Origin: an uncultured Bradyrhizobium sp.
GTDB taxonomy: Bacteria; Pseudomonadota; Alphaproteobacteria; Rhizobiales; Xanthobacteraceae
NCBI RefSeq assembly: GCF_947648125.1
Contig: NZ_CANSMR010000033.1
Location: forward strand, 1 to 64,000
Direction of reading: 5' to 3'
DNA length: 64,000 nt
Part shown: piece by piece, positions 1,259 through 63,648 of the stretch
How the letters are laid out: the number at the start of each line of letters is the position of its first letter
How positions within the stretch are numbered: position 1 is the stretch's first letter
Translations under genes and position numbers: made by a program
The notes under the pieces: model-generated
The model's database searches: none
What the model saw: the letters and a program-made list of their open reading frames with translations, nothing else
What the model was told of the DNA's origin: nothing

Positions 1259-1864
1259 ATGAACCAAATCAAGACTGTCTGTGTTTATTGCGGCTCCGGC
1301 CCCGGTAACAATCCCCGCTTCGTTGAAGCTGCCATCGCACTCGGCAAGGCCTTTGCCGACAACAACGTGCGCCTGGTCTACGGCGGCGGCTCGATCGGCC
1401 TGATGGGCGCGGTCGCGAAATCCACCCTCGATCATGGCGGCTCCGTCACCGGCATCATTCCGGAATTCCTGCGGGCGCGCGAGAATGCGCTGACCTCGGT
1501 TCAGGAAATGATCGTCACGCCCGACATGCATGAGCGCAAGCGGCTGATGTTCGAGCGCTCGGATGCGTTCGTCGCGCTGCCCGGCGGCATCGGCACGCTG
1601 GAGGAGCTGGTCGAGCAACTGACCTGGCAGCAGCTCGGCCGTCATCACAAGCCGATCCTGCTCGCCAATATTGATGGTTTCTGGGAACCCCTGCTCTCGC
1701 TGCTGAGCCACATGCGCACGACCGAGTTCATCCGCGCGACCCTTCCCATCAACGTGCTGATGGCCGACCGCGTCGACGACATCCTGCCGCGGCTGCGTTC
1801 GGCGGTGGCCGGCAAGCCGGCGGCCGCAAAGGAGCTCGCGCCCGAAGTGGCGCGGCGGCTGTAA
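1259..1864 (+). CDS. LOG family protein (cytokinin riboside 5'-monophosphate phosphoribohydrolase type)
   Basis: A 201-residue Rossmann-fold protein. Family motifs are GGGSIGLMG near residue 43, MHERKRLMF near residue 90 and PGGIGTLEE near residue 110; the last two carry the Arg and Glu needed by LOG enzymes, which release free base from nucleoside 5'-monophosphates. The start was set at MNQIKTVCVYCG because that is where the family begins; the frame stays open 96 bases further upstream, but that part is unlike the family. In soil bacteria the true substrate may be a general AMP-like nucleotide rather than a cytokinin. Single gene, convergent with the VOC gene 3 bp away. Confidence 0.88.
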   Translation: MNQIKTVCVYCGSGPGNNPRFVEAAIALGKAFADNNVRLVYGGGSIGLMGAVAKSTLDHGGSVTGIIPEFLRARENALTSVQEMIVTPDMHERKRLMFERSDAFVALPGGIGTLEELVEQLTWQQLGRHHKPILLANIDGFWEPLLSLLSHMRTTEFIRATLPINVLMADRVDDILPRLRSAVAGKPAAAKELAPEVARRL

Positions 1865-1867
1865 CCC

Positions 1868-2245
1868 CTACTCGCTCGGAAACGTCACGGCCTCGATGCG
1901 ATTGCCGTCGGGGTCGAGGATGAAGGCGGCGTAATAGCGCACGCGGTCGTGCGGGCGCAGGCCCGGGGGACCATCGGAGAGGCCGCCTGATGCCAGCGCG
2001 GCGGCGTGGAAGGCATCGACCTCGGCAGTGGTCTTCGCGCGCAGGCAGATATGGCTGCCGCTCTCATGCGCGACCTGCGCCATCGTGGCGCGCAGATTGA
2101 TCCAGAATTCAGGATAGGTCTTGCCGAAGCCGATCGTTGCCGGCCGCGTGACCAGACGGCTCAGGCCGAGCGCGGTCAGCGTCGGCTCATAGAACCGCGC
2201 CGCGCGGTCGAGATCGCGGACGCCGACAGAGACGTGGTCGATCAT
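1868..2245 (-). CDS. VOC family (glyoxalase/bleomycin resistance-like) protein
   Basis: A 125-residue single-module VOC protein. It opens with MIDHVSVGVRDLDRAARFYE and ends with the typical LDPDGNRIEAV strand, which supplies the metal-binding Glu of the fold. Families of this size form dimers and can be metal-dependent lyases, isomerases or binding proteins; nothing here fixes the reaction. It ends 3 bp from the convergent LOG gene and is preceded by an intergenic palindromic repeat. Confidence 0.8.
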   Translation of the reverse strand: MIDHVSVGVRDLDRAARFYEPTLTALGLSRLVTRPATIGFGKTYPEFWINLRATMAQVAHESGSHICLRAKTTAEVDAFHAAALASGGLSDGPPGLRPHDRVRYYAAFILDPDGNRIEAVTFPSE

Positions 2246-2257
2246 GGGCCCTCCTGC

Positions 2258-2345
2258 CCGTCATTGCGAGGAGCGAAGCGACAAAGCAATCCATGCATCC
2301 TTGCGCGCGGAAAGGTGGATTGCTTCGCTTCGCTCGCAATGACGG
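2258..2345. repeat. Intergenic palindromic repeat, family A
   Basis: Two arms in inverted orientation (CGTCATTGCGAGGAGCGAAG at 2259-2278 and the matching right arm ending CGCTCGCAATGACGG at 2345) can pair over about 30 bases with a short loop. I recognise this sequence as a common interspersed element of Bradyrhizobium-type genomes. It fills the gap between the VOC gene and cimA. Confidence 0.8.
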
Positions 2346-2365
2346 CACCTGTTTCCTTCGCAGCC

Positions 2366-3964
2366 TTAAGCCTGCGCGCCCGATTTCACCAGCTTGTAGA
2401 ACACCGAATCCATCAGCGCCTGGAACGAGGCGTCGATGATGTTGGGCGAGACGCCGACCGTGGTCCAGCTCTCGCCGGTCTCGTCCTCGCTTTCGATCAG
2501 CACGCGTGTGACCGCCTCGGTGCCGCCATTGAGGATACGCACACGGTAGTCGATCAGCTTCAGGCCATCGATGTATTTCTGGTACTTGCCGAGATCCTTG
2601 CGCAGCGCCACATCGAGCGCGTTGACCGGACCGTTGCCCTCGGCGGCCGAGATCAGCCGATCACCGTCGACGTCGACCTTCACCACCGCAAGCGCTACCG
2701 TGACGCGCTGGCCGTTGGCGTTGTAGCGCTGCTCGACATTGACGTCGAACTGCTCGACCTTGAAATATTCCGGCACCTTGCCGAGCGTTCGGCGCGCCAA
2801 GAGGTCGAACGAAGCATTCGCCGATTCATAGGCGAAGCCCGCGGCCTCGCGCTCCTTCAGCTCCTCGACCAGGCGCGTCAGCCGCGGATCACTCTTGTCA
2901 TAGACGATGCCGGCGCGGTCGAGCTCGGCCATCACGTTGGAGCGGCCGGCTTGATCCGAGACCAGCACCTTGCGGTGGTTGCCGACGGAATCCGGCAGCA
3001 CGTGCTCATAGGTCTGCGGATCCTTCATGACAGCGGAGGCATGGATGCCGGTCTTGGTGACGAAGGCGCTCTCGCCGACATAGGCCGCATGGCGGTTCGG
3101 CGCGCGGTTCAGCATGTCGTCGAGCGTACGCGACACCTTCATCAGCGTCGCCATCTTCTCCGTGGTGACGCCGATCTCGAACTTGTCGGAAAACTCCTGC
3201 TTCAGCTTCAACGTCGGGATCAGCGAACAGAGATTGGCGTTGCCGCAGCGCTCGCCGAGGCCGTTGAGCGTGCCCTGGATCTGCCGCGCCCCGGCGCGCA
3301 CCGCGGCGAGCGAATTGGCCACCGCCTGCTCGGTGTCGTTATGGGCATGAATGCCGACATGAGCGCCGGGCACCTGCTTGACGACATCGCCGACGATGGT
3401 CTCGATCTCATGCGGCATGGTGCCGCCATTGGTGTCGCACAGCACCACCCAGCGCGCGCCGGCCTCATAGGCGGCCTTCGCGCAGGCAAGCGCATAGTCG
3501 CGGTTCTCCTTGTAGCCGTCGAAGAAGTGCTCGCAGTCGACCATCACCTCGCGACCGAGCGCCTTGGCGGCGGCGACGCTGTCGCGGATCGAGGCGAGAT
3601 TCTCCTCGTTGGTGGTCTCGAGCGCGACCCGGACCTGATAGGCGGAGGATTTCGCGACGAAGCAGATCGCGTCCGCCTTGGCTTCGAGGATGCCGGCGAG
3701 CCCCGGATCGTTCGAGGCCGAACGGCCCGGCCGCCGCGTCATGCCGAACGCGGTGAATCGCGCGTGGTCGAACGCAGGCTTCCTGCTGAAGAACTCGGTA
3801 TCGGTCGGATTGGCGCCGGGATAGCCGCCCTCGACATAGTCGATGCCGAGCGCGTCGAGCATGCCGGCGATCACCTGCTTGTCCTGCAGCGTGAAATCGA
3901 CGCCATTGGTCTGCGCGCCGTCGCGCAGCGTGGTGTCGAACAGATAAAGGCGCTCGCGGCTCAT
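2366..3964 (-). CDS. cimA: (R)-citramalate synthase
   Basis: A 532-residue DRE-TIM enzyme that condenses pyruvate and acetyl-CoA to citramalate, the threonine-independent entry to isoleucine. Seen: FDTTLRDGAQ near the N-terminus (catalytic Arg-Asp and metal Asp), the HAHND metal motif near residue 215, GLGERCGNANL, and a C-terminal LeuA-type allosteric domain. The length fits the long CimA type (TIGR00977) rather than isopropylmalate synthase. ATG overlaps the stop of the upstream GNAT gene (ATGA at 3961-3964), so it is translationally coupled in a cysS-GNAT-cimA operon. Confidence 0.93.
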   Translation of the reverse strand: MSRERLYLFDTTLRDGAQTNGVDFTLQDKQVIAGMLDALGIDYVEGGYPGANPTDTEFFSRKPAFDHARFTAFGMTRRPGRSASNDPGLAGILEAKADAICFVAKSSAYQVRVALETTNEENLASIRDSVAAAKALGREVMVDCEHFFDGYKENRDYALACAKAAYEAGARWVVLCDTNGGTMPHEIETIVGDVVKQVPGAHVGIHAHNDTEQAVANSLAAVRAGARQIQGTLNGLGERCGNANLCSLIPTLKLKQEFSDKFEIGVTTEKMATLMKVSRTLDDMLNRAPNRHAAYVGESAFVTKTGIHASAVMKDPQTYEHVLPDSVGNHRKVLVSDQAGRSNVMAELDRAGIVYDKSDPRLTRLVEELKEREAAGFAYESANASFDLLARRTLGKVPEYFKVEQFDVNVEQRYNANGQRVTVALAVVKVDVDGDRLISAAEGNGPVNALDVALRKDLGKYQKYIDGLKLIDYRVRILNGGTEAVTRVLIESEDETGESWTTVGVSPNIIDASFQALMDSVFYKLVKSGAQA

Positions 3965-4467
3965 GCGTGGCCTCCAGGCGTGGCAACGCCGTCGAGCGTC
4001 TTCTGCATCGTGGTGTTGGCGAGCCACTCGTCGTTGATGGTGACCGTATTGCGCTGCTGCGCGACGTAGCCGCGCTTGCGGAAGAATTCGAGCGCTGTGT
4101 CGCTCGCATCAACCTTCAGGGCCTTGGTGCCGCGGGCGCTCGCGATCTTCTCCAGCGCATCGCACAGCGCGCTGCCTGCACCCTGCCCGACCGCACTCGG
4201 ATGCACATAGAGCATGTCGATGTGATCGGCCCCCTTCAGCGAGGCGAATCCAACAGGCGCGCCCTGCAATGTCGCGATCAGGGTCAGCTGCCCGGCGAGC
4301 TTGTTGCCGAAGGCCTCCTCGTCGTCGGCGGCCATCGCCCAGGCTTCCTGCTGCGCCTCGCTGTAATCGTCGCCGGTCAGGTCCATGATCGACGCCGCGA
4401 AGATCGCCGCCAGCAGCGGCGCGTCGTCAGGCAGATACGGACGCAACGCGGGTGCGGATCGGCTCAT
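3961..4467 (-). CDS. GNAT family N-acetyltransferase
   Basis: A 168-residue GNAT protein. The core strand [19 protein letters not shown] (near residues 87-105) is the acetyl-CoA pyrophosphate-binding motif A, and EFFRKRGYV near residue 130 is motif B. The acceptor substrate cannot be told from sequence. Start and stop overlap cysS and cimA by four bases each, so all three genes are probably one transcript; the link with cysteinyl-tRNA synthetase looks positional rather than functional. Confidence 0.87.
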
Positions 4468-5879
4468 CGCGCAACCTCCCAGGTCGTGATCGGCTTTCCT
4501 TCGGCATCCTTGCCGTCCTTGATCGCCACGCCCATCGCCGCGAGCTGATCGCGGATCCGGTCGGACTCCTTGAAGTCCTTCCGCGCACGCGCCGCGGTGC
4601 GCTCGGCGATCAGCACCTCGACCACGGCGGCATCGACGCCGCTGGCCTGCTCCTTGCGGCCCTTCCACGCCGCCGCGCTCTCAGAGAGGAAGCCGAGCAG
4701 CCGCAGCGAGCCGGCAAATTCCTTGCGGCTCGCTTCATTGCTGGCGGCAGCATTCCGCAGGCTGTGCAGCACGGCCATGGCCTGCGCCGTGTTGAGGTCG
4801 TCGTAGAGCGCCTCGACCATCGCCGGCGATGGCGCGCCGGGCTCGGCGTCGGCCGCGACCGCATACCAGTCGTCGAGCGTCCTTGCGGCTTCCTCCGCGC
4901 TCTTCAGGGTCCAGTCCAGCGGCGAACGGTAGTGCGTTCTCAGCATGCTGAGCCGCAGCACCTCGCCCGGCCAATCGGCCAGCAGATCGCGGATCGTGAA
5001 GAAGTTGCCGAGCGACTTCGACATCTTCTCGCTTTCGATCTGCAGGAAGCCGTTGTGCATCCAGACATTGGCCATGCGGTCGGTGTGGAACGCGCAGCAA
5101 GTCTGCGCGAGTTCGTTCTCATGGTGCGGGAACACCAGGTCGATGCCGCCGCCATGGATGTCGAACTTTTCGCCGAGATGCTTCCAGGCCATCGCCGAGC
5201 ACTCGATGTGCCAGCCGGGCCGCCCCTCCACCGCAATGCCTGCCGGCGACGGCCAGGACGGCTCGCCCGGCTTCGACGGCTTCCACAGCACGAAATCGGT
5301 GTTGTCGCGCTTGTAGGGCGCGACATCGACGCGCGCGCCCGCGATCATCTCGTCGAGCGAGCGCTTCGACAGCGCACCATAGCGCGGCAGCACCGAATTG
5401 GCCGCGTTCATCGCCTGCGGCGAGAACAGCACGTGATCCTCGGCGACATAGGCAAAGCCGCCGGCGACCAGCTTCTCGATGATCGCGCGCATCTCCGGGA
5501 TGTGCTCGGTGGCGCGCGGCTGCACCGTCGGCGGCAAGCAGCCGAGCGCGGTGACGTCGTCCTGATACTGCTGGTAGGTCTGCTCGGTGACCTTGCGGAT
5601 CGCCTCGTTCAGCGGGACGCCGGGATAATCCCGCGCGGCGCGCACGTTGATCTTGTCGTCGACGTCGGTGATGTTGCGGACATAGGTGACGTGACCTGTG
5701 CCATAGCGATGGCGCAGCGCGCGAAACAGCACGTCGAAGACAACAGCGGCGCGGCCGTTGCCGATATGGGCGAAGTCATAGACCGTCGGTCCGCAGGCAT
5801 ACATGCGGACGTTATCGGCATCGAGCGGCACGAAGGGCCGCTTCTCCCGGGTCAGCGTATCGTAGAGGCGCAAATCCAT
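4464..5879 (-). CDS. cysS: Cysteine--tRNA ligase
   Basis: A 471-residue class I aminoacyl-tRNA synthetase that charges tRNA-Cys. Seen: [15 protein letters not shown] near residue 30, which contains the HIGH-type signature and the first zinc cysteine; further zinc ligands GWHIECSAM and HHENE in the middle; and [10 protein letters not shown] near residue 270. Length is normal. It is the first gene of the cysS-GNAT-cimA operon; the stop overlaps the next ATG (4464-4467). Confidence 0.97.
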
Positions 5880-49795: not shown

Positions 49796-51373
49796 TCAGC
49801 CTTGCACCAGGCCGCGGCTGACGAGGTTGATGTCATCGGGATTGACGAGATCCTTCGCCGTCCAACCCGAAACGTCATAGTCGCTCATGCAATTGCGCAC
49901 GAAATCCTGCATGGCGCCGAGGTCGCCGGTCGCGCTCGCGGCCATCAGCGTCTCGACGCGAAGGTTCTCGTAATTGCCCGCATAGTTGCGCTCGTAGAGC
50001 TCGTGCCGGCCGCCGAACTCGGAGCCGACCGCGTCCCAGAGCAGCTTGAGCAGCTTGATCCGGTCGATCGCGGCATAGCCGTTGGAGCCGCGCACGAAGC
50101 GGTCGAGATAAGGTCTGATCGCCTCGCTCTCCAGATCGGCCGAGCTTGACGGCAGATAGATCAAGCCGCTCGCGACGTGACGCTCGATCAATTCCTTGAT
50201 CCGCGGATAGGCCATCGGCGCGAAGACGCGATAGGCCAGCCCATAATTCAGGTTGGGCAGATTGTAGCCCTCGGTTCCCTGCCAGGCGATCGGCGATTTC
50301 ACCATCGCATCCGAAATGCCGTGGAACAGATTGCGCCAGGCGATCACCTCGCCCACCGCCGTCTGCACGCCGCGGAAATCCTTCGATCCGGTCGCCTCCA
50401 CCGCCATCGAGAACAGGCCGGCAATGAAGTCGAGCTTGACGGCAAGCCGCGTCACGCCGTGCAGCGTGAAGCGCGGGATGAAGCCCGACGCCGGGAAGAA
50501 CTGGTTGATCTTGTCGACGTCGCCATAGATGAAGACGTTCTCCCAGGGCACCAGCACCTTGTCGAAAACGAGGATCGAGTCGTTCTCGTCGAAGCGGCTG
50601 GACAGCGGATAGTCGAACGGCGAGCCGGTCGCAGCCGCGGTGAATTCGTAGGACGAGCGGGCGATCAGCTTGACGCCCTTGGCGTCCATCGGCGCCGTGA
50701 AGATCAGCGCGAACGACTTGTCCTTGATCGGGATGCCGTAGTGGGCGATGAAATTGTAGTGCGTCAGCGCCGAGCCGGTCGCAACCACCTTCGCGCCCGA
50801 GACGATCAGGCCGGCGTCGGTCTCCTTCTCGACATGCATGAAGACGTCGCGCACGTCCTCGATCGCCCGGTCGCGATCGATCGGCGGGTTGACGATGGCG
50901 TGATTCCAGAAGTCGAGCCGCTCCTGGGTCCGGGCATACCATTTCTTCGCGTTGCCGGCGTATTCGCCATAGAAGCCCGAGTTCGCGCCCAAGGTCCCAA
51001 GGAACGCCGCCTTGTAGTCCGGAGAGCGGCCCATCCAGCCGAACGCAACCTTCTGCAAGTCGGCGATCGCATCGCGGCCCTTGATCAGGTCGTCGGCCGT
51101 GCGCGAGCCAAGGAAGAACGGATGGGTCAACTGTCCGGAGCCGGTGTCGGTCAGGACGCCGATCTGATCCTTCTTCTCGTGGAAGCGGTCGTACCAGCGC
51201 GCCACCATCCGCGCCGAATTGCGGAAGGCGGGATGTGCGGTGACGTTCTTGACGCGCTCGCCGTAGATGTAGATTTCCCGGCCATCCTGGATGCTGTCCA
51301 GGAATTCCGCGCCGGTATAGACGCTGGTGGTTGGCGCTGGCGCGTCGGCCCGCAGGGCAGCTGCTGTAGTCAT
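49796..51373 (-). CDS. HpaB-family FADH2-dependent phenol/4-hydroxyphenylacetate-type monooxygenase, large component
   Basis: A 525-residue flavin monooxygenase oxygenase component, using FADH2 from a separate reductase (the gene at 52288). Typical segments include [14 protein letters not shown] near residue 38, [25 protein letters not shown] near residue 200, [15 protein letters not shown] and [10 protein letters not shown] near residue 480. The group hydroxylates phenols ortho or para to the OH. With ring-cleavage genes next door, the product should be a catechol or hydroxyquinol. GGAGGAG lies before the ATG; the 276-bp divergent region to the plus-strand genes holds both promoters. Confidence 0.88.
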
Positions 51374-51649
51374 GGGTTTCTCCTCCGCTTGTGTCGTTGG
51401 ACCGACGGGCGTTGCCACACCGGCCCCGACCATCCCGTCACGCTCTTGGTCGGCGTGACATCGGCGGAAAAGCTACGCGCTCAGCCTGAGCGGGCGAAAG
51501 GTATCACACCATACCGCGCGAACCGTCGCAGCTCGGGCTATGACTCAGGTGGCACGGACCGGACGGCAATGATCGTCCGGCCGACGCAGCGCCGCAGCTG
51601 ATGCAGCAATTTGCACGGCACGGCAAGGGAGCGAGAACCGGAGCGAGCC

Positions 51650-52291
51650 ATGGGCAAAGGTTTGGCCAAGGATCTGGGCAAGGATTTTGACAGCGCTGCT
51701 GTCGCTTTCCATCGCGATGGGGAATTGGCCCTCACGGCCAGCGTCGTGACCATCGGCGCGTTCGACGGCGTTCATCGCGGCCATCAGGAACTACTCCGGC
51801 AGACCATTGCGGCAGCGCGACGCCGCGGCATTCCGGCCGTGGTCTATACCTTCGATCCGCCGCCGAAGGTGTATTTCGGCCAGGCCGAGGCGCTGATCTC
51901 GCTCCGCGAGAAGCTCGAGCGCATCGCAACATTTGCACCTGACCATGTCATCGTCGCCGACTTCAACCCTATCTACGTCCGGCGCACCGCGGCCGATTTC
52001 CTCGCCGAGTTGCAGCTTCTGCAACCGCGTGAAGTGATCGTCGGCAAGGATTTCCGCTTCGGGTCCTGCAAGGGCGGTACCGCGCAGCTGCTGCGGCAGT
52101 ACTTCAACACGCGCATCCTGCCGCCGGTGCGCTGCGGCAATGGCGAGATCGTCTCCAGCAGCCGGATCCGCTCGCTGCGGCGATCCGGCCTTGCTGCCGC
52201 CGCGGCTGCGCTGGAAAACTGGCGGGACATCGTGACCACATCACCTGCCAATCGATCCGGCCAGGCCCAACTCGAGGTCATCAGCCAATGA
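51650..52291 (+). CDS. Stand-alone FAD synthetase domain (RibF N-terminal domain only)
   Basis: A 213-residue protein with the FMN adenylyltransferase fold: VTIGAFDGVHRGHQELL (nucleotide-binding GxFDGxHxGH) near residue 36 and VSSSRIRSLRRSGL near residue 180. Normal bacterial RibF is about 310 residues and has a riboflavin kinase domain after this point; here that domain is missing and the gene ends in an overlap with the flavin reductase ATG (ATGA at 52288-52291). The product probably turns FMN into FAD for the neighbouring monooxygenase. Confidence 0.85.
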   Translation: MGKGLAKDLGKDFDSAAVAFHRDGELALTASVVTIGAFDGVHRGHQELLRQTIAAARRRGIPAVVYTFDPPPKVYFGQAEALISLREKLERIATFAPDHVIVADFNPIYVRRTAADFLAELQLLQPREVIVGKDFRFGSCKGGTAQLLRQYFNTRILPPVRCGNGEIVSSSRIRSLRRSGLAAAAAALENWRDIVTTSPANRSGQAQLEVISQ

Positions 52292-52812
52292 CCGCCATCG
52301 ATCCGCGCGAGCTGCGCAACGCCTGTGGCCAATTCGGTACCGGCGTCACCATCATCACCACGCATTGCGAGGGACGCGATCACGGCATGACGGCCAATGC
52401 CTTCATGTCGGTCTCGCTCGATCCGCCGCTGGTCGCGATCTCGATCGCGAGAAGCGCGAAGATGCTCTGCAACATCCAGAGCACCGGCCGCTTCGCGGTC
52501 AGCGTGCTCGCCGAAGGCATGGAGGATCTCGCCTGGCATTTCGCAGGCAAGCCCAGGCTCGACCTTTGCGACGTCTTCGAACGCCGCAACGAGCTACCCG
52601 TCATCGCCAACGCGGCGGCGTATTTCGTGACCGATCTTGCGGACGAGATCGTCGCGGGCGACCACACCATCTTTCTCGGTCATGTCCGCGAGATGGCACT
52701 GGAGCCCGGCAAAAAGCCGCTGCTGTTCTGCCGCGGCCGCTTCGGCGGCCTTGCCGACCCGCACCCCGCGCCCGCGACGCTGGAGAATGCTGCCTACGAA
52801 TTTATCTGGTGA
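52288..52812 (+). CDS. Flavin reductase (HpaC-like), small component of the monooxygenase
   Basis: A 174-residue NAD(P)H:flavin reductase. Signature GQFGTGVTIITT at the N-terminus, MTANAFMSVSLDPPLVAISI near residue 35, and GRFGGLADPHP near the end are those of the HpaC/PheA2 group. It gives FADH2 to the HpaB-like oxygenase. Translationally coupled to the FAD-synthetase gene. Confidence 0.92.
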   Translation: MTAIDPRELRNACGQFGTGVTIITTHCEGRDHGMTANAFMSVSLDPPLVAISIARSAKMLCNIQSTGRFAVSVLAEGMEDLAWHFAGKPRLDLCDVFERRNELPVIANAAAYFVTDLADEIVAGDHTIFLGHVREMALEPGKKPLLFCRGRFGGLADPHPAPATLENAAYEFIW

Positions 52813-52884
52813 GACCGCCAGAAGATATTCCCGAACACGGGGATGCAAGTTTGATCCAAACTGCAAGAAAAGGAGGAAACGACC

Positions 52885-53754
52885 ATGCTGAACGTCAACA
52901 AGGACACCATCACCGACCACGTGATCGCCGCGCTCTCGAACGACATTCCGGATCGCAACCGTCAGATCATGACGAGCCTGATCCGCCACATGCATGCGTT
53001 CTGTAAGGAGGTCGACCTGACCTTCGCCGAGTGGTTCGCGGCGTGCGAGTTCCTGCGGCGCGCCGGCGACATCTCGGACGAGAAGCGCAACGAGTTCATC
53101 CTGATCGCTGACATTCTCGGCGTCGAGGTCTTGGTCGATATGCTCGACCACCGCGTCACCGATGGCGAGAGCGAGTCCACCGTGCTCGGGCCGTTCTACC
53201 GGGAAAACCCGCCGGTGCTGCCCAAGGGCGCCTCCATCATCAAGAAGACGTTCGACAACGCGCAGACCGTCAAGGTCAGCGGGCGCATCAGCGACACCGC
53301 GGGGCGGCCGATCGAGGGCGTCACCATCGACGTCTGGGAAGACGCGCCGAACGGGCTCTATGACCTGCAAGACCCCGAGCAGCCGGCCTATAATCTGCGC
53401 GGCCGCTTCACCACCGACGCCAACGGCGAATACGCCTTCGTAGCGCTCCGCCCCGAGCCTTACCCGATCCCCTATGACGGTGCCGGCGGCGAGCTCCTGA
53501 AATACATGGGCCACCATCCCTGGCGTCCGGGCCACATCCACTTCATGCTGTCGAAGGACGGCTATCAATCGCTGATCTCGCAGATCTACGATTCCGAGAC
53601 CAAGTATCTCGACAACGACTCGGTATTCGCCGTGAAACAGAGCCTGATCGGCAAGTTCGCCAAGGCACCGGCCGGCGCCGACACCGATCTCGTTCTCGAT
53701 TTCGACTTCAAGCTCAAGAAGGCGGCAGTCGAGCGCCTTGTCGCGGCTGAGTAA
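52885..53754 (+). CDS. Intradiol ring-cleavage dioxygenase (catechol or hydroxyquinol 1,2-dioxygenase)
   Basis: A 289-residue non-heme iron(III) enzyme. An N-terminal helical dimer domain (HMHAFCKEVDLTFAEW) precedes the catalytic sandwich, with iron Tyr in NGLYDLQ near residue 157 and YPIPYDG near 193, and the two iron His in WRPGHIHFML near 215. ESTVLGPFYREN and the HHPWRPGHIHF block resemble hydroxyquinol dioxygenases more than classical CatA, but catB and catC beside it point to catechol. A strong ribosome site (AAGGAGG) precedes the ATG. Confidence 0.88.
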   Translation: MLNVNKDTITDHVIAALSNDIPDRNRQIMTSLIRHMHAFCKEVDLTFAEWFAACEFLRRAGDISDEKRNEFILIADILGVEVLVDMLDHRVTDGESESTVLGPFYRENPPVLPKGASIIKKTFDNAQTVKVSGRISDTAGRPIEGVTIDVWEDAPNGLYDLQDPEQPAYNLRGRFTTDANGEYAFVALRPEPYPIPYDGAGGELLKYMGHHPWRPGHIHFMLSKDGYQSLISQIYDSETKYLDNDSVFAVKQSLIGKFAKAPAGADTDLVLDFDFKLKKAAVERLVAAE

Positions 53755-53765
53755 TCCACACCACG

Positions 53766-53794
53766 CCCTGCCAGGCCGGGAAAGCCTGGCAGGG
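53766..53794 (+). terminator. Hairpin between the dioxygenase gene and catB
   Basis: CCCTGCCAGGC-CGGGAAA-GCCTGGCAGGG is a perfect 11-bp stem followed by TTCACTTTG. It may reduce read-through into catB or stabilise the upstream message. Confidence 0.5.
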
Positions 53795-53822
53795 TTCACT
53801 TTGAACTGACCCGCGAGGACAT

Positions 53823-55001
53823 ATGAGTCGTGCCGTGATCGAAATCGCCGAGCCCGTGGAGCCAGTGCGGAGCCTCGCAAGGGACACCGCGATCCGCAGT
53901 ATCCGCGCCACCATCGTCGAAACGCCGACCCGCCGGCGGCACAAGCTTTCCAACACGGAAGTCACGCATCAGGGCTACGTTCTGGTGCGTGTGCTGCTTG
54001 ACAACGGCGTGACTGGTATCGGCGAAGCCTCGACGCTCGGCGGGCCGCGCTGGGCCGAGGAGAGCGTGGAATCGATCAAGGCCGCGGTTACGAATTACCT
54101 GGCGCCGGCGCTGCTCGGCCAGCCTGCCCTCGCCTTCGAAGCCAATGCCTTGCGCATGAGCAAGGCCGCGACCCGCAATTTCGCGGCCAAGGGCGCGATT
54201 GAGTCCGCCCTGCTCGACGCCGCCGGCAAGACGCTCGGCCTCCCCGCCAGCGCGCTGCTCGGTGGTGCGGTTCGCGAGCGCATGGAAGTGATCTGGGCTC
54301 TGGCCTCAGGCGACAGCGGCCAGGAGCTGGAGGAAGCGAAGGAGAAGCTGCGGCGCCGCGAACACCGCCACTTCAAGATCAAGTTCGGCTTCAACCGCCC
54401 GCAGGCGGATGTGAAGCGGTTGCAGACGCTGCGCGCCGGCCTTGGTGACGAGGTGCGCCTGATCGTCGATGTCAACCAGGGCTGGACCGAAGCCGAATGC
54501 ATCCGCTTCATGCCCGCGCTGGAAGAACTGGACGTCGCGCTGGTCGAGCAGCCGGTGTCCGCGCTGCAGCTGGAAACCATGGCGCGTGTCGCGGCGCGCA
54601 CCTCCATCCCGTTGCTTGTCGACGAAGCGGCCTTCACCAAGGAGGAAATCGCCCGCGTCGCCACGATGGGTTGCGGCAGCGTGTATTCGCTAAAGCTCGT
54701 GAAGAGCGGCGGCCTGTTCGAGATGAAGCGCGCCGCGGCGGTCGCCGGCGCGCACGGCCTCGAGCTCTACGGCGGCTGCCTGCTGGAGAGCAGCATCGGC
54801 GCAGCCGCGCATCTCGCCGCATTCGCCACCCTGCCCAGGCTCGAATGGGGCAGCGAGCATTTCGGCCCGCGGATCCTGGTGGAGGATCTCGTCGTCGACC
54901 CGATCAGATTCGACGCGTTTGAGATCTGTGTGCCTGATGGCCCGGGCCTCGGCGTCGAAGTCGACGAGGACAAGATCCGCGCCTTCGCCCGAAAGGACTA
55001 G
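53823..55001 (+). CDS. catB: Muconate cycloisomerase
   Basis: A 392-residue enolase-superfamily enzyme. Active-site set is complete: HFKIKFGF (general base pair Lys-x-Lys) near residue 180, VDVNQGW, VEQPVS and VDEAAF (metal Asp/Glu/Asp), and SLKLVKSGG (second Lys) near residue 290. It lactonises cis,cis-muconate to muconolactone, the substrate of catC. The N-terminal 20 residues before the IRSIRATIVETPTRR start may be extra; a GTG further in is possible. Confidence 0.92.
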   Translation: MSRAVIEIAEPVEPVRSLARDTAIRSIRATIVETPTRRRHKLSNTEVTHQGYVLVRVLLDNGVTGIGEASTLGGPRWAEESVESIKAAVTNYLAPALLGQPALAFEANALRMSKAATRNFAAKGAIESALLDAAGKTLGLPASALLGGAVRERMEVIWALASGDSGQELEEAKEKLRRREHRHFKIKFGFNRPQADVKRLQTLRAGLGDEVRLIVDVNQGWTEAECIRFMPALEELDVALVEQPVSALQLETMARVAARTSIPLLVDEAAFTKEEIARVATMGCGSVYSLKLVKSGGLFEMKRAAAVAGAHGLELYGGCLLESSIGAAAHLAAFATLPRLEWGSEHFGPRILVEDLVVDPIRFDAFEICVPDGPGLGVEVDEDKIRAFARKD

Positions 55002-55187
55002 CCAGATGGCGTCGTTCCCGCGGACAATTGACAATGCAGGGATGCCCGCTCAGTCTTCGCACTGGAACCACCGTCTCGATCATGCGCCGATGACCACGCG
55101 ATATCAAACCAGGCAGGCCTTTCCCGCAGCTTCCGCGGAAGCGCGCGGACAAACGTCCGGCTGACCGTGACCGATCGCGACGACGTC

Positions 55188-57689: not shown

Positions 57690-58196
57690 TTGGCAGTCGC
57701 GAAGGAGTCCCCACCTGTTTCGCCCAAGAGCGGGGTCGATCAGGAGGCCGAGTACCGGGCTCAGACACGGCTTTGGCTTCGGCTGCTTGCCTGCACAACC
57801 CTGATCGAGGGTGAGCTGCGGCGCCGGTTCCGCGAGGAATTCGATTTCACGATGCCGCGCTTCGACGTCCTGGCCCAGCTTGACCGCGAGCCGAGCGGAC
57901 TGGTGCTGGGAGAGCTGCCGAAGCGCCTGATGGTCTCCGCCGGAAACCTCACACCCATCGTCGATCGCCTGGTCGAGGACGGCTACATCACCCGCACACC
58001 CTCTAACCTCGATCGGCGCGTGCAGATCGTTTGCATGACCGTCGAGGGCCGCAAGGCATTCAGGCGCATGGCCAAGAGCCATGGCTCATGGCTGGCCGAG
58101 CTGCTGGCGGGATTCCCGGCCGGCCGGCTCGATGGATTGACCAGCGAGCTCGACGAGCTCAAGGGCGCCGTCAGGGACGCGATGCGGAAGCCATAG
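57690..58196 (+). CDS. MarR-family transcriptional regulator
   Basis: A 168-residue dimeric winged-helix regulator. FTMPRFDVLAQLDREPSGL, LPKRLMVSAGNLTPIVDRLVEDGYI (recognition helix) and the wing NLDRRVQIVCMT are in the expected order, with dimer helices at both ends. The start is TTG, with AGGAG 7 bases upstream; no ATG fits. The gene ends 84 bp from the 3' end of the convergent catabolic operon, and it probably senses a CoA-thioester or acid from that pathway. Confidence 0.87.
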   Translation: MAVAKESPPVSPKSGVDQEAEYRAQTRLWLRLLACTTLIEGELRRRFREEFDFTMPRFDVLAQLDREPSGLVLGELPKRLMVSAGNLTPIVDRLVEDGYITRTPSNLDRRVQIVCMTVEGRKAFRRMAKSHGSWLAELLAGFPAGRLDGLTSELDELKGAVRDAMRKP

Positions 58197-58280: not shown

Positions 58281-59438
58281 TCAAGGCAGCAACTTGTACT
58301 TCCCGTCCTCGATCTGAACCAGGATCCGCGCGCGGGCATCGACGCCGTGCCGATCCGCCGGCGTGTAGGAGTAGACGCCCTGCGTCCCGGCCAGCTCCTT
58401 GGTGGTGAACAGCGCCTCGCGAAGCGCGTTGCGGAATTCCGGCGAGCCCGGCTTGGCACCGGTCGCCAGCGCGCGCTTGGCCGCATCGACGAACACCAGC
58501 CAGCCATCGAAGGAATAGGATGAAAACGAGTCGGTCGGCGCCTCGCCATTCGCCTTCTCGAAGGCCGCGCGGAACGCCAGGGCAACCTTCTGGATCGGAT
58601 TGCTGGCTGGAAGCTGCTCGGCCGCGGTCACCGGTCCGGTTGGGCAGATAATTCCGTTGGCGGCCTTGCCGGCGAGCCGCAGGAAATCGGCGCTGATGAG
58701 CCCGTGGTTGCCGTAGAGCGGTCCCTTGTATCCACGCTCGGACAAGGCGATCACCGGCAGCGCACCCGGCGTTCCCGTGCCGCCGAGCATGATGGCGTCG
58801 GGACGGACCGCCAATGCGCGCAGCACCTGGGCGGTCACCGACGAATCCGATCGAGCGTATCGCTCGTTGGCGATGACCTTGATGTCGGCCGCCTTGGCGC
58901 TTTGCGACAGCGAGTCGTACATGAGGTCGCCGAAGGCATCCGAGAAGCCGATGAACGCGACGGTCTTCAACCCTCGCGCCTTCATGTGGTCGACGATGCC
59001 CTGAACCAGAAGCGGCGTCGGTTGCGGCGTCTGCACGACCCAGGGCCCGCCATCGCCGGGCGGCACCGCCGCGATCGGCGACACCGCGATCATTGGAATC
59101 TTCATCTCGATCGCGGCCGTCGCCATCGCCAGCGTCTGCGGCGCACCGGACGTGCCGATGAGGATGTCGACCTTCTCCTGCTCGACGAGCTTGCGCGCGT
59201 TGCGTGCCGACGCCGTGGGATCGGAGCCGTCGTCGAGTTGGATGACGCGGAGCTTCTCACCGCCGACTTCGCCGACATAGGCCTCGCCCGCCGCTAATCC
59301 CTTCGCGTTCGGAATTCCGATCGACGACACCGGCCCGCTGAGGCCGGTGACGAATCCGACGAGGATCTCCGCTTGCCCGACCTGCGGAACGGCAACAAGC
59401 AGCGCGGCGGAAGCCAGCAGGGTCTTCATCGAGATCAT
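58281..59438 (-). CDS. ABC transporter substrate-binding protein (Leu/Ile/Val-type, periplasmic)
   Basis: A 385-residue type I binding protein. Signal peptide ends at VGQAE near residue 23. ILVGFVTGLSGPVSSIG, DILIGTSGAPQTLAMA and GFSDAFGDLMYD are typical of LivJ-like receptors, many of which in Bradyrhizobium bind aromatic acids. No membrane or ATPase subunits are in this window, so it must use a permease coded elsewhere or beyond the right edge. Last gene of the minus-strand cluster. A second in-frame Met lies three residues in. Confidence 0.88.
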   Translation of the reverse strand: MISMKTLLASAALLVAVPQVGQAEILVGFVTGLSGPVSSIGIPNAKGLAAGEAYVGEVGGEKLRVIQLDDGSDPTASARNARKLVEQEKVDILIGTSGAPQTLAMATAAIEMKIPMIAVSPIAAVPPGDGGPWVVQTPQPTPLLVQGIVDHMKARGLKTVAFIGFSDAFGDLMYDSLSQSAKAADIKVIANERYARSDSSVTAQVLRALAVRPDAIMLGGTGTPGALPVIALSERGYKGPLYGNHGLISADFLRLAGKAANGIICPTGPVTAAEQLPASNPIQKVALAFRAAFEKANGEAPTDSFSSYSFDGWLVFVDAAKRALATGAKPGSPEFRNALREALFTTKELAGTQGVYSYTPADRHGVDARARILVQIEDGKYKLLP

Positions 59439-59495
59439 GGCACCTGTCTTTCTTGATTTGCGTTTCTTCTGCCGGGCAAGCGCCATCCGCTCGCT

Positions 59496-60278
59496 TCAGT
59501 TCGCCGAAACCAACGCGATCACGCGCAGCGGACTGCCGGAACCGTTCTGGATCTTCAGGGGCGAAGCCACAATGACGGCACCGGTGGCGGGAAGCTGATC
59601 GAGGTTGCAAAGACACTGAAGGCCATAGCGGCCGGCGCCGTGCAGGAAGTGATGCGCCGGATAAGGCGGCTCGAAATGGCCGGCCTGCCCCGCGTCGGTG
59701 CCGATCGTCTCGGTGCCGAAGCCGATGATGCCGCGCTCCTCCACCAGCCATTTCATGACCGCCGGATTCGGGCCCGGGGTGTGTGCGCCGTCATCCCTGA
59801 GGTTGGCGTAGTCGCGCCAGCCCTTCTTCGACCAGTCGGTCCGTAGCAGAACCCAGTTGCGCTCGGGGATCCGCCCGTACTTCGCCTCCCAGGCCTCGAC
59901 GAGCGGAACGGTCAGCAGGAAATCCGGATCCTGCGCTGCCCCGGCCGAGCAGTCGATGACACACGCCGGAGCGATCATGTCCTTGGCAGGCATCGTATCG
60001 ACGGCATTGTTCGGCAGATCCTTGCCGGTGAACCAGTGAATCGGCGCGTCGAAATGCGTGCCGGTGTGCTCGCCGAAGGTCACGTTGTTCCAGTACCAGG
60101 CCGGACCGCGACCGTCATAGCGCGAAATCTCCTGGATCCGGACGGGAGCTGCCTGGCCAAACTCCGGCGGCAGCACGATGACCGGAAAGTCCGGACTGAG
60201 CGTGAAGGTCAGATCGACGACGCGCACCGCGCCGGACGAGACCGCACCTGCGAGCTCCAGGAGATTCTTGCTTTGCAT
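59496..60278 (-). CDS. Cyclase-family metal-dependent hydrolase (kynurenine formamidase-like)
   Basis: A 260-residue member of the 'cyclase' (PF04199) family. The metal motif HTGTHFDAPIHW near residue 70 is complete, and TPGPNPAVMKWLVEERGI-type and GFGTETIGTDAG segments follow. The family contains kynurenine formamidase and isatin hydrolase and acts on amide or lactam bonds. It begins 35 bp after the SDR-fusion gene and is followed by the binding protein. GGGAGGA lies before the ATG. Confidence 0.88.
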   Translation of the reverse strand: MQSKNLLELAGAVSSGAVRVVDLTFTLSPDFPVIVLPPEFGQAAPVRIQEISRYDGRGPAWYWNNVTFGEHTGTHFDAPIHWFTGKDLPNNAVDTMPAKDMIAPACVIDCSAGAAQDPDFLLTVPLVEAWEAKYGRIPERNWVLLRTDWSKKGWRDYANLRDDGAHTPGPNPAVMKWLVEERGIIGFGTETIGTDAGQAGHFEPPYPAHHFLHGAGRYGLQCLCNLDQLPATGAVIVASPLKIQNGSGSPLRVIALVSAN

Positions 60279-60312
60279 CGTCACGTCCTCCCGCTTGGTT
60301 GAAACCCTGATC

Positions 60313-61554
60313 CTATTTGTCGAGCTCGCGCTCGAGCGCTTTCGGATTGGCGGCAAGACGCTGCCTGATTTCCTCGGCGACGTCCCCGACATACATCTCC
60401 TCGAGCCCGCCTCTGAGCCCGGACACGATCGCCTGCGCCACGGCGCGCGGCGCAACCTTGGGCGGCGGCACGGTCTGGAACCACTCGGTGTCGACCGGCC
60501 CCGTGAACAGGTTCAGCACCTTGACGCCGCCGGGCCTGAGTTCGGCGCGAAGACAATGCGACAGCGACAGGCAAGCGGCTTGCGATGCCGAGTAGGCGCC
60601 GAAAGCGGGCCAATTCGCCAGCGCATGGACCGACAGGATATTGACCCAGGCGGCACTGTTGTTGACGCCATCCGCACCCCGCATCCGCATCGCCGGACCG
60701 AAGGCCTGCGCGAGGTTGATGAAGCCGAGATAGGCCTGGTCGATCTCGTCCCGCGCGATGCTCGTGCCCCTGCGGTCGAGCAGGCCACCAGGCCGCACAT
60801 ATTCCGTCGTGTTGACGAGGATATCGACCTTGCCGCCGATGTCGGCCGCAAGATCAGTCGCCGACTTTTCGTCGGACGCGTCGAGCGTAACGACTTCGAT
60901 CCCTTGCTGTCCGCGCAACAGCTGTTCACCGGCAAACGGCCGCCACGGTTCGGCAACGCCGACGAACACCGTCTTTGCGCCCGCGGCCTTCAGCGCTGCA
61001 ACGGCCTCCTGGCCGATCAAGGTGCGGCCGTTGGTCACGAGCACCCGCCGGAATTTCGGATCAGCCGTCATTTCCCGCCACTGCCTGTCGTCTGCCATGT
61101 TGGGAGTCTCCTCCTCGGGTCGGGCAAAGGCCACCGCCTGACCGCTCTTGTCGAGCTGAAACGACATGAGGACGGGCGCGCCCTCGACGCAGTCGGCATG
61201 CAGATGCGCCACCATCGTCGGACCGCAATCCATTTTGACGAGACCGATGCGCCAGGGTGCCCGCTCGCGGAAATAGACGTCGCTCGGCACCCGCGCCGTC
61301 GTTTCGGCCAGCAGTGCGCCGCGGCGCGGCGCATCGACGAACACGAGATCGGCCGACAGGCAGGCGGGGCACGCCTCGCGCGCCGGATAGGCGAAGGCGC
61401 CGCAGGCCTCGCAGCGCTGCAGCATGAAGCGTCCTTCGGCGGCGGCGCGCGTGAACCCGTGCGATGTCCTGCTGCGCGGCCGCGGCGGTGACGCCGGAAG
61501 CCGCGTCCGCAGCAGCGGGTTCTTGCGCTGGGGAGGCTCAATCGGATCGATCAT
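60313..61554 (-). CDS. DUF35 (zinc-ribbon/OB-fold) - SDR fusion protein
   Basis: A 413-residue fusion. Residues about 35-145 are a DUF35 module with zinc ribbon Cys48-x2-Cys51-x10-Cys62-x2-Cys65 and an OB fold (WRIGLVKMDCGPTMVAHL). Residues about 165-405 are SDR-like, but the nucleotide loop reads VTNGRTLIGQE, NNAG is replaced by VNTTE, and the catalytic Tyr321 is followed by SASQ, so the essential Lys is Gln325; Ser308 remains. The SDR half is therefore probably inactive or structural. Its ATG overlaps the thiolase stop (61551-61554), implying a complex with that protein. Confidence 0.85.
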   Translation of the reverse strand: MIDPIEPPQRKNPLLRTRLPASPPRPRSRTSHGFTRAAAEGRFMLQRCEACGAFAYPAREACPACLSADLVFVDAPRRGALLAETTARVPSDVYFRERAPWRIGLVKMDCGPTMVAHLHADCVEGAPVLMSFQLDKSGQAVAFARPEEETPNMADDRQWREMTADPKFRRVLVTNGRTLIGQEAVAALKAAGAKTVFVGVAEPWRPFAGEQLLRGQQGIEVVTLDASDEKSATDLAADIGGKVDILVNTTEYVRPGGLLDRRGTSIARDEIDQAYLGFINLAQAFGPAMRMRGADGVNNSAAWVNILSVHALANWPAFGAYSASQAACLSLSHCLRAELRPGGVKVLNLFTGPVDTEWFQTVPPPKVAPRAVAQAIVSGLRGGLEEMYVGDVAEEIRQRLAANPKALERELDK

Positions 61555-62729
61555 CGCGCGGGCCCTGCAAAGATCACGGCACCGGAGGCCAGGCCGCGGT
61601 CATAGTTGATCATGCCGAAGCCCGACGCCAAGCCGAGCTTGGCATCCTTCACCTGCGTGGGACCGGCTTCGCCCAGGACCTGCCGCAATCCCTCGACGAG
61701 CCCGAGATAGGCGCCGGCGGCGCCGGCCTGCCCTGCCGAGAGCTGGCCACCCGAGGTGTTGTGCGGGAAGTCGCCGTCAACCGTCAGGTCGTGCTGACGA
61801 ACGAAGGCTGCGCCCTCGCCCTTGTTGCAGAAGCCGAGATCCTCGAACTGCATCATCGTGATGACCGGATAATCATCGTAGGTCTGGACGATATCGAGAT
61901 CGTCAGGCTTCACGCCGGCCATCGCGTAGAGTTCACCGACATCCATCGCCCAGCCGCCGCGCAGCTGCATCGGATCGTCGGCGAAGGCGTTGTGCCGCTC
62001 GATTGTCGACAGCAATCGCGCGGCCGGCAAGCCGAGCGATGCCGCGGTCTCGTCCCGCATCACAAGGAAGGCCTCGGCACCGGCGCACGGCATGACGCAA
62101 TCGAACAGGTGAATGGGGTCGGAAATGGGACGGGCCGCCAGATACTGCTCGATCGTCAGCGGCGTCTTCATCAGCGCATGCGGGTTGCGCAGCGCGTTGG
62201 CACGCTGGGCGACCGCGATCCTGCCGACGTCCTCGCGCGTGACGCCATGAGTCCGCATATAGTTGCGCGCGATCAGTGCGAAGCTCGCATTGGCGCCGCC
62301 TGCGCCATAAGGATAGACCGCGTCCTGGTTGAAACGCGAGAAATTCTCGAGCGTGAGGCGGAAGGAATCGACGTGGTTGGTATCGCCGGCCACGCAAGCC
62401 ACGATATCGGCATCGTGTGCCTGCACCGCGCGCGCCGCCTTGCGCAATGCCGCGATAGCGCTCGCGCCGCCGAGCGGGATCGTGTCCAGCCATCTGACGC
62501 ACAGCCCGAAATGCTGCGTCAGTCCGATCCCGCTGTCAGTCCCCATGGTGAAGCTGGAGACGCACAGACCGTCGATGTCGGAAGCCTTGATGCCGGCCCG
62601 CGCGACCAGCGCGCTCAGCGCGCGGCCAATCCACCATTGCGCGCTCTCGATGGAATAGCGCGCATAGGGGATCGTGACGGGAGCCGCCATCACGATGCCG
62701 TCATACGGTGTGCGCAGCGAATTCTTCAC
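61551..62729 (-). CDS. Thiolase-superfamily protein (lipid-transfer/SCP2-type, altered active site)
   Basis: A 392-residue thiolase fold without the canonical catalytic set: the N-terminal nucleophile region reads PLGGASAIAAL (residues 85-95, no Cys), and the C-terminal loop NTSGGQLSAGQAGAAGAY has Gln where GHP normally puts His. TYDDYPVITMM and DLGFCNKGEGAAF near residues 280-300 are typical of thiolase-like aldolases. Such proteins pair with DUF35 partners; here the DUF35 gene overlaps. The start is GTG at 62729; the frame is open 63 codons upstream without family similarity. Confidence 0.8.
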   Translation of the reverse strand: MKNSLRTPYDGIVMAAPVTIPYARYSIESAQWWIGRALSALVARAGIKASDIDGLCVSSFTMGTDSGIGLTQHFGLCVRWLDTIPLGGASAIAALRKAARAVQAHDADIVACVAGDTNHVDSFRLTLENFSRFNQDAVYPYGAGGANASFALIARNYMRTHGVTREDVGRIAVAQRANALRNPHALMKTPLTIEQYLAARPISDPIHLFDCVMPCAGAEAFLVMRDETAASLGLPAARLLSTIERHNAFADDPMQLRGGWAMDVGELYAMAGVKPDDLDIVQTYDDYPVITMMQFEDLGFCNKGEGAAFVRQHDLTVDGDFPHNTSGGQLSAGQAGAAGAYLGLVEGLRQVLGEAGPTQVKDAKLGLASGFGMINYDRGLASGAVIFAGPAR

Positions 62730-62865: not shown

Positions 62866-63648
62866 CTAGCGCTTGTTGCGCGCGAGCATCGCCCGGAAAT
62901 CGTCACGTGCCTGGGCACTGGCTCGCTTGAAGCTCGGCCCGCGGCTCGGCTCGGTGCCGTTGAGCTGCCTCAGCTGCACCCACATCTCTGCGCTCTTCAA
63001 CGCCACCGCGGCGCAGTTCACGACCGGCGCGTGCCCGACCTTCAGGCCGTGCTCCCGTCCGATCAAGAGGCCCGGTAGCACGCCGGCGGGGATCACCACG
63101 TCGGCTCCGCGCTGCACCAGCGGCAGGGCGCAGGCCAGGAAATCCTCGATCATCCGCGCGTGCGCCGCCCGATCGCCGGCGAACGCACCCGCGAAATCCT
63201 CCGGCTTGCAGCCGAGGCCGGTCACGTGGACGACGCGATCACCGAGGCCGTAACGTTCGGCCTGCTCGTAGTGCCAGACCTCGAAGACCGGATCGAGCGT
63301 GACGAGGCCTAGGCGCCGGCCGAGTTGCGAGGCCGCAAGCAGCGTCGCCTCGCCGGTCCCGATCACGGGAATGTCGAGCGTCGAGCGGAGTTCGTAAAGA
63401 CCGGGATCCTGGAAGTGGCCCATCACGAAGGCGTCGAACCCGCTCTGTTCGGCCGCGATGCCGTTGTCGATCGCCTGAACCGCGCAGCGCAATTCGGCAA
63501 GCCGGCCGAACTCCCGGTCCGGCGGCGAAATGCCCTCGACGTGAACCGTCGTGCCGGGCGCAGCGATCGTGTTGAGGTACTCCGACAGCCGCGCCATGTA
63601 AGGCGCGTTCACGCTCGCATCGACGAAACTCTGCCAGAAGATGCGCAT
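62866..63648 (-). CDS. Asp/Glu/hydantoin racemase-superfamily protein lacking both catalytic cysteines
   Basis: A 260-residue two-domain protein. GHFQDPGLYELRSTLDIPVIGTGEA near residues 77-101 is the first-half active-site segment of hydantoin racemases, where Cys is normal but His78 is found. The second-half site reads GADVVIPAGVLPGLL with Ala188 in place of Cys. A two-cysteine racemase mechanism is thus not possible. It is the first gene of the minus-strand cluster; 136 bp separate it from the thiolase-like gene. AGGAG lies 8 bases before the ATG. Confidence 0.8.
   Translation of the reverse strand: MRIFWQSFVDASVNAPYMARLSEYLNTIAAPGTTVHVEGISPPDREFGRLAELRCAVQAIDNGIAAEQSGFDAFVMGHFQDPGLYELRSTLDIPVIGTGEATLLAASQLGRRLGLVTLDPVFEVWHYEQAERYGLGDRVVHVTGLGCKPEDFAGAFAGDRAAHARMIEDFLACALPLVQRGADVVIPAGVLPGLLIGREHGLKVGHAPVVNCAAVALKSAEMWVQLRQLNGTEPSRGPSFKRASAQARDDFRAMLARNKR

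Follow-up and report, generated by a model that had tools for sequence, protein, structure and literature searches.

What reaction is carried out by a thiolase-like protein that lacks the residues of a thiolase and a dehydrogenase-like protein that lacks those of a dehydrogenase? The two overlapping genes that raise this question lie on the minus strand, between positions 60313 and 62729, of a 64,000-nucleotide stretch of an uncultured Bradyrhizobium sp. (contig NZ_CANSMR010000033.1, positions 1 to 64,000; hereafter the window). A first-pass annotation described them as a fusion of DUF35 with a dead short-chain dehydrogenase/reductase (SDR), joined to a thiolase-like partner in a complex that cleaves C-C bonds. 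C-C cleavage remains the best reading of the sequence, and that proposal is partly supported: it was right in kind, but the genes already belong to a known set. Gene order, homology, and the isatin hydrolase encoded directly downstream identify the pair, by sequence, as IadG-IadH of the bacterial indole-3-acetic acid (IAA, auxin) degradation locus. The best explanation, and a likely one, is that IadG-IadH of the iad pathway would act as a redox-neutral retro-aldolase, converting dioxindole-3-acetyl-CoA to isatin and acetyl-CoA.

The thiolase-like protein, IadG

The features of the iadG-like gene are listed below; Sal and Ltp2 are the side-chain aldolases compared with it later.

61551..62729, minus strand: IadG-like thiolase-superfamily protein of 392 amino acids (aa), GTG start (PF22691 Thiolase_C_1)
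62466..62468, minus strand: Gly88 of IadG, at the place of the thiolase nucleophilic Cys (Gly in 58/58, alignments)
61869..61880, minus strand: YDDY motif, IadG residues 284-287, with the Tyr base kept and Asp286 at the place of Sal Cys304
61725..61751, minus strand: GGQLSAGQA, IadG residues 327-335, with Gln329 and Gln334 matching Sal Gln347 and Gln352 and without the GHP His
61551..61554, minus strand: ATGA, the 4-base overlap of the iadG-like and iadH-like genes

Alignments bear out the first-pass statement that the partner has neither signature of a thiolase, Gly88 standing for the nucleophilic Cys and GQA for GHP; the four-base overlap was likewise described correctly. The residue survey across loci kept 58 of the 64, setting aside four repeats, a truncated gene, and a locus with the SDR alone. 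The residues expected of a Sal/Ltp2 aldolase, the catalytic Tyr of YDxY/F and a Gly for the nucleophilic Cys, are both present. In a survey that left out thiolase matches ending before profile position 350, YDDY was found in 142/142 distinct IadG-like sequences, and three paralogues from the same genome, among the 145 matches, have YDSF or YDAF.

Sal is the closest solved structure to IadG, ranking first in two sequence comparisons and in the fold comparison. Ltp2 ranked fourth and third by sequence and second by fold, where it was nearly tied with thiolases. The second catalytic residue of these aldolases, Cys304 in Sal or Tyr344 in Ltp2, is not present in IadG, which in the alignments has Asp286 and Gln334 instead. 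In our reading IadG works like Sal and Ltp2 but is classed as neither.

The DUF35-pseudo-SDR fusion, IadH

60313..61554, minus strand: IadH-like fusion of DUF35 (zinc ribbon and OB fold) and pseudo-SDR, 413 aa (Pfam, AlphaFold2)
61156..61446, minus strand: DUF35 part, residues 37-133 (Pfam zf-ChsH2 and OB_ChsH2_C)
61360..61413, minus strand: zinc-ribbon Cys48, Cys51, Cys62, and Cys65 (CCCC in 128/128 distinct fusions)
60319..61050, minus strand: SDR-fold part, residues 169-412 (adh_short/PRK08264-like; Foldseek)
61012..61035, minus strand: degenerate glycine motif TNGRTLIG, residues 174-181 (motif intact in 1/128 fusions)
60580..60582, minus strand: Gln325 in the position of the catalytic Lys (among 128 fusions, 71 Q, 25 E, 17 K, and 15 others)

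Pfam places zf-ChsH2 at residues 37-70, OB_ChsH2_C at 73-133, and adh_short at 171-362, and the first part has both the CxxC-x10-CxxC zinc ribbon and the OB fold of DUF35/ChsH2 proteins. The AlphaFold2 model of the whole fusion (pLDDT 91.8, pTM 0.90) suggests a fixed arrangement of the DUF35 and SDR parts. The SDR-fold part has the Rossmann-type SDR fold, with 5u4s as its best Foldseek match (TM 0.92-0.93, normalised by target). Its site departs from that of an active classical SDR, with TNGRTLIG in place of the Gly motif TGxxxGxG, NTTE (248-251) in place of NNAG, and Ser-Tyr-Gln in place of Ser-Tyr-Lys. The dead site and four intact zinc Cys of the first-pass annotation are therefore confirmed residue by residue, with one refinement: the Gly motif, NNAG, and Lys are lost, but Ser308 and Tyr321 of the triad are still present.

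A sequencing error, considered earlier as a source of the fusion, is excluded by 128 distinct fusions (profile start <=40 and end >=400; L026 is N-terminally cut), which show the DUF35-SDR architecture to be real and widespread. Its novelty is narrower than first claimed, since DUF35 joined to a second enzyme domain is known from Shy and ChsH2; the pseudo-SDR version was not found described in the literature searched.

Across the 128 fusions the Gly motif is intact only in L057, which also has NNAG and Ser-Tyr-Lys, and five more keep Ser-Tyr-Lys only. Position 325 is Gln in 71, Glu in 25, Lys in 17, His in 7, Met in 3, Asn in 2, Ala in 2, and Cys in 1, and both Tyr and Lys are missing in 32/128. 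Among 14 fusions inspected individually, repeats included, L057 again was the only one with an intact site. In IadH of the IAA degrader R. pomeroyi, Ser, Tyr, and Lys are replaced by Pro, Thr, and Ala. IadJ, the pathway's own SDR, has an intact TGGNSGIG and YSATK.

The domain itself is conserved. Median dN/dS values for the SDR part, the DUF35 part, and the partner are 0.124, 0.125, and 0.096, respectively (31 close sequences, pairs with dS 0.1-1.5), indicating that the SDR part is not decaying freely. In an unrooted SDR tree, all 51 sampled pseudo-SDRs fall on one side of a branch with support 100/100, and the intact L057 SDR groups with the stand-alone SDR of L062 (99/87). Whether a single fusion was followed by later loss or two fusions occurred, our impression from the similar linker text, judged by eye, favors a single fusion. 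An uncultured alphaproteobacterial metagenome-assembled genome (L145) encodes an IadH of 142 aa that has DUF35 alone and, judged by eye, stops inside the linker; L145 carries iadA, B, F, G, I, and J, and diverged D and E genes (40 and 36% identity to those of the window's contig). L145 and a second DUF35-only case, L129, sit apart within the fusion group on the thiolase tree, which is most simply read as two SDR losses. We propose that IadH keeps its SDR-fold domain as a pseudoenzyme, a conserved scaffold without a catalytic role.

It is very unlikely, in our estimate, that the domain is an active SDR with unusual cofactor-binding residues, formed by the conserved T[ND]GR and NT.[ED] motifs. 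These positions show conservation, not random change (residue 175 is Asn or Asp in 125/128, Ser308 is kept in 123/128, and Asn248 in 128/128), which together with the dN/dS and the existence of the active-looking L057 speaks for activity; the 32 fusions without Tyr and Lys and the two separate DUF35-only cases speak against it.

The L057 pair (1416-5082), which contains the only DUF35-SDR fusion found with an intact SDR site, adjoins a class III CoA-transferase, and its thiolase-like gene has YDDY. No isatin hydrolase was found on its 7-kb contig. The first-pass annotation would have counted against itself homologues with an intact SDR and no thiolase neighbor; L057 (1/128) has the former, but it does have a thiolase neighbor.

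The pair in the auxin degradation locus

In Achromobacter (L142), genes for a DUF6537 protein (iadB-type), a Fer2 reductase, Rieske alpha and beta subunits, an AMP ligase, the thiolase-like protein, the DUF35-SDR fusion, a cyclase, an SDR, and a solute-binding protein follow one another, and R. pomeroyi DSS-3 has the same run from reductase to SDR. The order ligase-thiolase-IadH-cyclase-dehydrogenase after the Rieske genes is found in R. pomeroyi, Roseibium, and Achromobacter L142, and it is the order given for iadC-K2, for IAA, in a preprint on Variovorax (PMC12633357). In Variovorax, anthranilate falls significantly when iadCDE, F, G, H, I, or J is deleted (PMC12633357), and IAA degradation has been demonstrated in R. 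pomeroyi, among other strains (PMC9613470). The iadG and iadH genes of Variovorax paradoxus CL14 and R. pomeroyi DSS-3 stand in the same order as here, and the R. pomeroyi proteins have the same domains as the window's pair, at 60/44% identity. The window's contig shares 77, 68, 65, 60, 44, 63, and 65% identity with R. pomeroyi D, E, F, G, H, I, and J, respectively. Its genes form two blocks about 17-21 kb apart, G, H, and I at 59.5-62.7 kb and D, E, F, and J at 79.8-83.4 kb. The contig stops inside iadD, so iadC lies beyond the sequence at hand. Between 75.0 and 79.8 kb are two ferredoxin-oxidoreductase-type genes (IadA/B-like) and two MarR genes.

The gene directly downstream of the fusion is the following.

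59496..60281, minus strand: isatin hydrolase homologue, IadI (isatin hydrolase A 5nna/5nnb, E 2e-120)

All metal and pocket residues of IadI are conserved (His69, His73, Asp75, His79, Gln219, Asp193, His207, Trp59, Trp61, Trp80, and Tyr204, counted by eye on an alignment with LaIHA; numbering from PMC6117287). A neighbor survey of 89 loci, requiring about 5 kb of flank on each side and using identity cut-offs of our choosing, found an isatin hydrolase relative in 87, directly downstream of the fusion in 82; the counts are not independent because near-copies were kept. With an isatin hydrolase as the next gene, the preceding enzyme should deliver isatin.

The pair could be an aldolase-type C-C lyase whose natural substrate here is another 3-substituted oxindole or an aryl beta-hydroxyacyl-CoA rather than an auxin intermediate, and several observations leave room for this. 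The iadGHI genes are about 17 kb from iadDEFJ. In 38/89 loci, many of them near-copies, isatin hydrolase is the sole nearby iad gene of seven sought, and L212 and L120 have no hydrolase nearby. Among 198 genomes of the family, IadG was found in 26 and IadD in 17 (E<=1e-100, both counts taken as the same draw); 16 of the 17 also have IadG, the other (G052) has IadD at only 40% identity, and 10 of the 26 lack IadD at this threshold. Against these stand the iadDEFJ and iadAB-like genes on the same contig, the single strong IadH match in this genome (next at E 3.7e-10), the adjoining hydrolase in 82/89 loci, and IAA breakdown via isatin in Bradyrhizobium (PMC9613470, PMC6117287). We judge a different substrate improbable for the pair in this window. 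On a Novosphingobium humi plasmid (L212 7724-10134), a diverged pair (39% fusion identity) lies beside a DUF885 gene and a TonB receptor with no isatin hydrolase in the locus neighborhood, and that pair possibly acts on another substrate.

Comparison with known systems

The bile-acid side-chain aldolase Sal-Shy of Comamonas testosteroni (9MYR; PMC12329534, PMC11321319) has the thiolase fold in common with IadG. Sal and IadG share the Gly for the nucleophilic Cys, the Tyr in YDxY, and both Gln residues (347 and 352 in Sal), and in both Shy and IadH a DUF35 protein is joined to a second enzyme domain, its gene lying downstream of that for the thiolase-fold partner. They differ in that Sal needs Cys304, where IadG has Asp286, and in that Shy has an active MaoC hydratase domain and a Cys3His zinc site, whereas IadH has a pseudo-SDR and a Cys4 site.

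The cholesterol side-chain aldolase Ltp2-ChsH2 (6OK1) carries out retro-aldol cleavage beside the C17 hydroxyl with a DUF35 partner. Ltp2 has YDHF and a second Tyr344 that is absent in IadG, and the inert domain of ChsH2 is MaoC, not SDR. The alcohol of the Ltp2 substrate is tertiary, and the product is a ketone. The inert MaoC domain of ChsH2 (PMC11321319) provides a precedent for a dead domain on a DUF35 partner.

Two more DUF35 complexes are known with thiolase-fold or thiolase-like proteins, the benzoylsuccinyl-CoA thiolase BbsAB (7PXP) and the acyltransferase PhlABC (5M3K). The residues rule out a BbsAB-type thiolase for IadG, since the Cys and GHP retained in BbsB are replaced by Gly and GQA in IadG. 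An inactive SDR subunit, BbsC, occurs in the BbsAB pathway as a separate protein. It was not among the 60 of 336 profile-search matches listed, which carries no weight. Of the comparators named in the first-pass annotation, Ltp2-ChsH2 was apt, as is its newer relative Sal-Shy, and a Sal-type aldolase is a better parallel than BbsAB/BbsC. We also considered, and dropped, a lignin VceA/VceB-like pair (vanilloyl acetate, VAA): the two papers mention neither thiolase nor DUF35, and in them VceA is the enzyme that converts VAA, while VceB is a thioesterase for vanilloyl-CoA/syringoyl-CoA.

Proposed reaction

Complex formation, substrate, chemistry, and the role of the pseudo-SDR are inferred as follows. 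IadDE and IadJ would convert IAA to dioxindole-3-acetic acid (DOAA). IadF would join DOAA to CoA, the resulting thioester being a beta-hydroxyacyl-CoA whose C3 alcohol is tertiary. Bound to the DUF35 part of IadH, in the way that Shy holds Sal, IadG would use Tyr284 to take the proton of the C3 hydroxyl. The C-C bond would then break to give isatin and the enolate of acetyl-CoA, which Asp286, at the Sal Cys304 place, would protonate. IadI would hydrolyze isatin to isatinate, from which anthranilate would follow. NAD(P)H would not be required, the SDR-fold domain of IadH serving as a conserved, non-catalytic scaffold. Thiolysis is not expected because, by our own reasoning, DOAA-CoA has no beta-keto group.

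The preprint names IadG a ketothiolase and IadH an alcohol dehydrogenase, which would jointly and reductively remove the acetyl side chain to give dioxindole (PMC12633357); here the same proteins are read as an aldolase and a DUF35-pseudo-SDR. The preprint's view draws on annotation and on metabolomics, in which C8H7NO2 accumulates, and it fits an SDR fold that is confidently predicted and under purifying selection. It is difficult to reconcile with an IadG that lacks the nucleophilic Cys and GHP His, with the loss of the dinucleotide Gly motif in 127/128 IadH proteins, with an IAA degrader, R. pomeroyi, that lost Ser, Tyr, and Lys, or with an iad-like operon (L145) that has no SDR domain. The substrate would also lack a beta-keto group (our own reasoning), and the next enzyme is an isatin hydrolase. 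We hold a ketothiolase-dehydrogenase pair to have only a small chance of being correct.

Several points weigh against the proposed retro-aldolase. Without iadI it is C8H7NO2 (dioxindole), not isatin, that accumulates, and IadFGH is interpreted as removing the acetyl group reductively (PMC12633357); an isatin-first route would need later reduction of isatin by other enzymes. Replacement of Cys304 by Ser, Ala, or His abolishes Sal activity (PMC12329534), so Asp would have to work differently. Ltp2 ranks only fourth or third by sequence, and its fold score is within 1 of those of several thiolases. We know of no tested precedent for Asp as an enolate proton donor. DUF35 is said to be irrelevant to Ltp2 or hydratase activity (PMC11321319), yet iadH is needed. 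Lys is kept in 17/128 fusions and the L057 site is intact, so redox chemistry is possible there, and an SDR part as constrained as the DUF35 part presumably does something. Identity between the L145 Rieske subunits and those of the window's contig is only 40 and 36%, so the L145 substrate may differ, and the 10/26 IadG genomes without IadD at E<=1e-100 count here too. The tie to the Variovorax IadG and IadH is made through gene order and the R. pomeroyi proteins.

A fuller version of the retro-aldolase proposal, to which we give even chances, is that IadG-IadH supplies the missing C-C cleavage step of bacterial auxin catabolism, as a redox-neutral aldolase of the thiolase superfamily with a Tyr-Asp (YDDY) catalytic pair that would release isatin directly, with dioxindole as a side product. 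What was once a dehydrogenase partner would be retained on its DUF35 adaptor as a pseudoenzyme, either shaping the active site or docking isatin hydrolase, and distant relatives of the L057 type would be still-active aldolase-dehydrogenases.

Distribution and linkage of the pair

The first-pass annotation asked whether a thiolase-like gene always adjoins the fusion. It does so, at -60 to +200 nt upstream, in 125/128 distinct fusions; in the remaining three the thiolase-like gene is at 202 nt, at 7.5 kb, or at a contig end. The exact 4-base overlap was found in 47/62 loci showing both genes, from 64 examined (four genes were entered twice, and starts were chosen by script).

In the same family, 69/391 genomes and 12/47 genera match the fusion at E<=1e-30; for one of the 69 (G135) the match is confined to the SDR part. 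Across the class, the fusion profile matches 45/385 genomes at E<=1e-40, and most of the weaker matches cover just the SDR part. The L057 fusion, used as query against the phylum, matches 22/398 genomes at E<=1e-30, in many of them through the SDR alone. When GTDB genomes were scanned with the partner alignment, at least 591 relatives were obtained among at least 596 pattern matches. The best 80 of these loci include Bradyrhizobium, Mesorhizobium, Rhizobium, Aromatoleum, Achromobacter, Paracoccus, and others, and near relatives are over-represented because only the best 80 of at least 591 were kept. Six of the 80 end at a contig edge; in 72 of the other 74 a full-length fusion follows the thiolase-like gene, and in two (L129 and L145) DUF35 alone does.

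Sulfitobacter L129 (4930-10559) and Phyllobacterium L151 (8890-15478) each have two thiolase/DUF35 pairs, and the DUF35 protein of the second L129 pair has no SDR. The fusion occurs in 34 plasmid records (Sulfitobacter, Roseibium/Labrenzia, R. pomeroyi, and others), 33 predicted non-mobilizable and one conjugative. On Agrobacterium pusense pR76 (L213 9001-10254), the annotated SDR gene begins about 125 codons late, cutting off the DUF35 part, and such late starts may hide the DUF35-SDR architecture in databases. A record titled Frankia sp. RB7 (L081) is probably mislabelled, since its thiolase-like gene is 93% identical to a Bradyrhizobium one.

Other genes of the window

58281..59486, minus strand: ABC transporter solute-binding protein (Peripla_BP_6; 41% to that of the Achromobacter iad locus)
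57732..58196, plus strand: MarR-family regulator (relative in 34/89 loci)
62866..63648, minus strand: Asp/Glu/hydantoin racemase-family protein, often linked (PF01177; relatives in 63/89 loci)

Two tandem MarR genes lie beside iadAB-like genes on the window's own contig (L189 14777-15756), and with the MarR gene at 57732 they make three regulators near the pathway. An aromatic-degradation cluster at 49796-55001 comprises an HpaB-type monooxygenase (minus strand) and a flavin reductase, an intradiol dioxygenase, and a muconate-cycloisomerase-like gene (plus strand), with a LysR-like gene at 55167. A link of the pair with these 50-55 kb genes was dropped, support having been neither sought nor found.

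Significance

In the literature searched, whose coverage is partial, no paper was found joining DUF35 or an aldolase with auxin degradation, and the sole occurrence of the term 'retro-aldol' was in a metabolic-engineering review. Three points were not found in that literature, and we regard them as new: how IadH is built from its domains, the aldolase-like site of IadG, and the redox-neutral route to isatin.

Root growth is affected when root bacteria break down auxin, and the transfer of iad genes into root commensals is already under way (PMC12633357). The side-chain removal step was assigned in that preprint from annotation. If the retro-aldolase proposal is true, two gene functions would be corrected, and an unneeded reduction and re-oxidation would drop out of the pathway. 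The role of a conserved pseudoenzyme would be testable, because two natural lineages do without the SDR domain. DUF35-dependent aldolases would be extended from steroids to an aromatic hormone, with a new catalytic pair.

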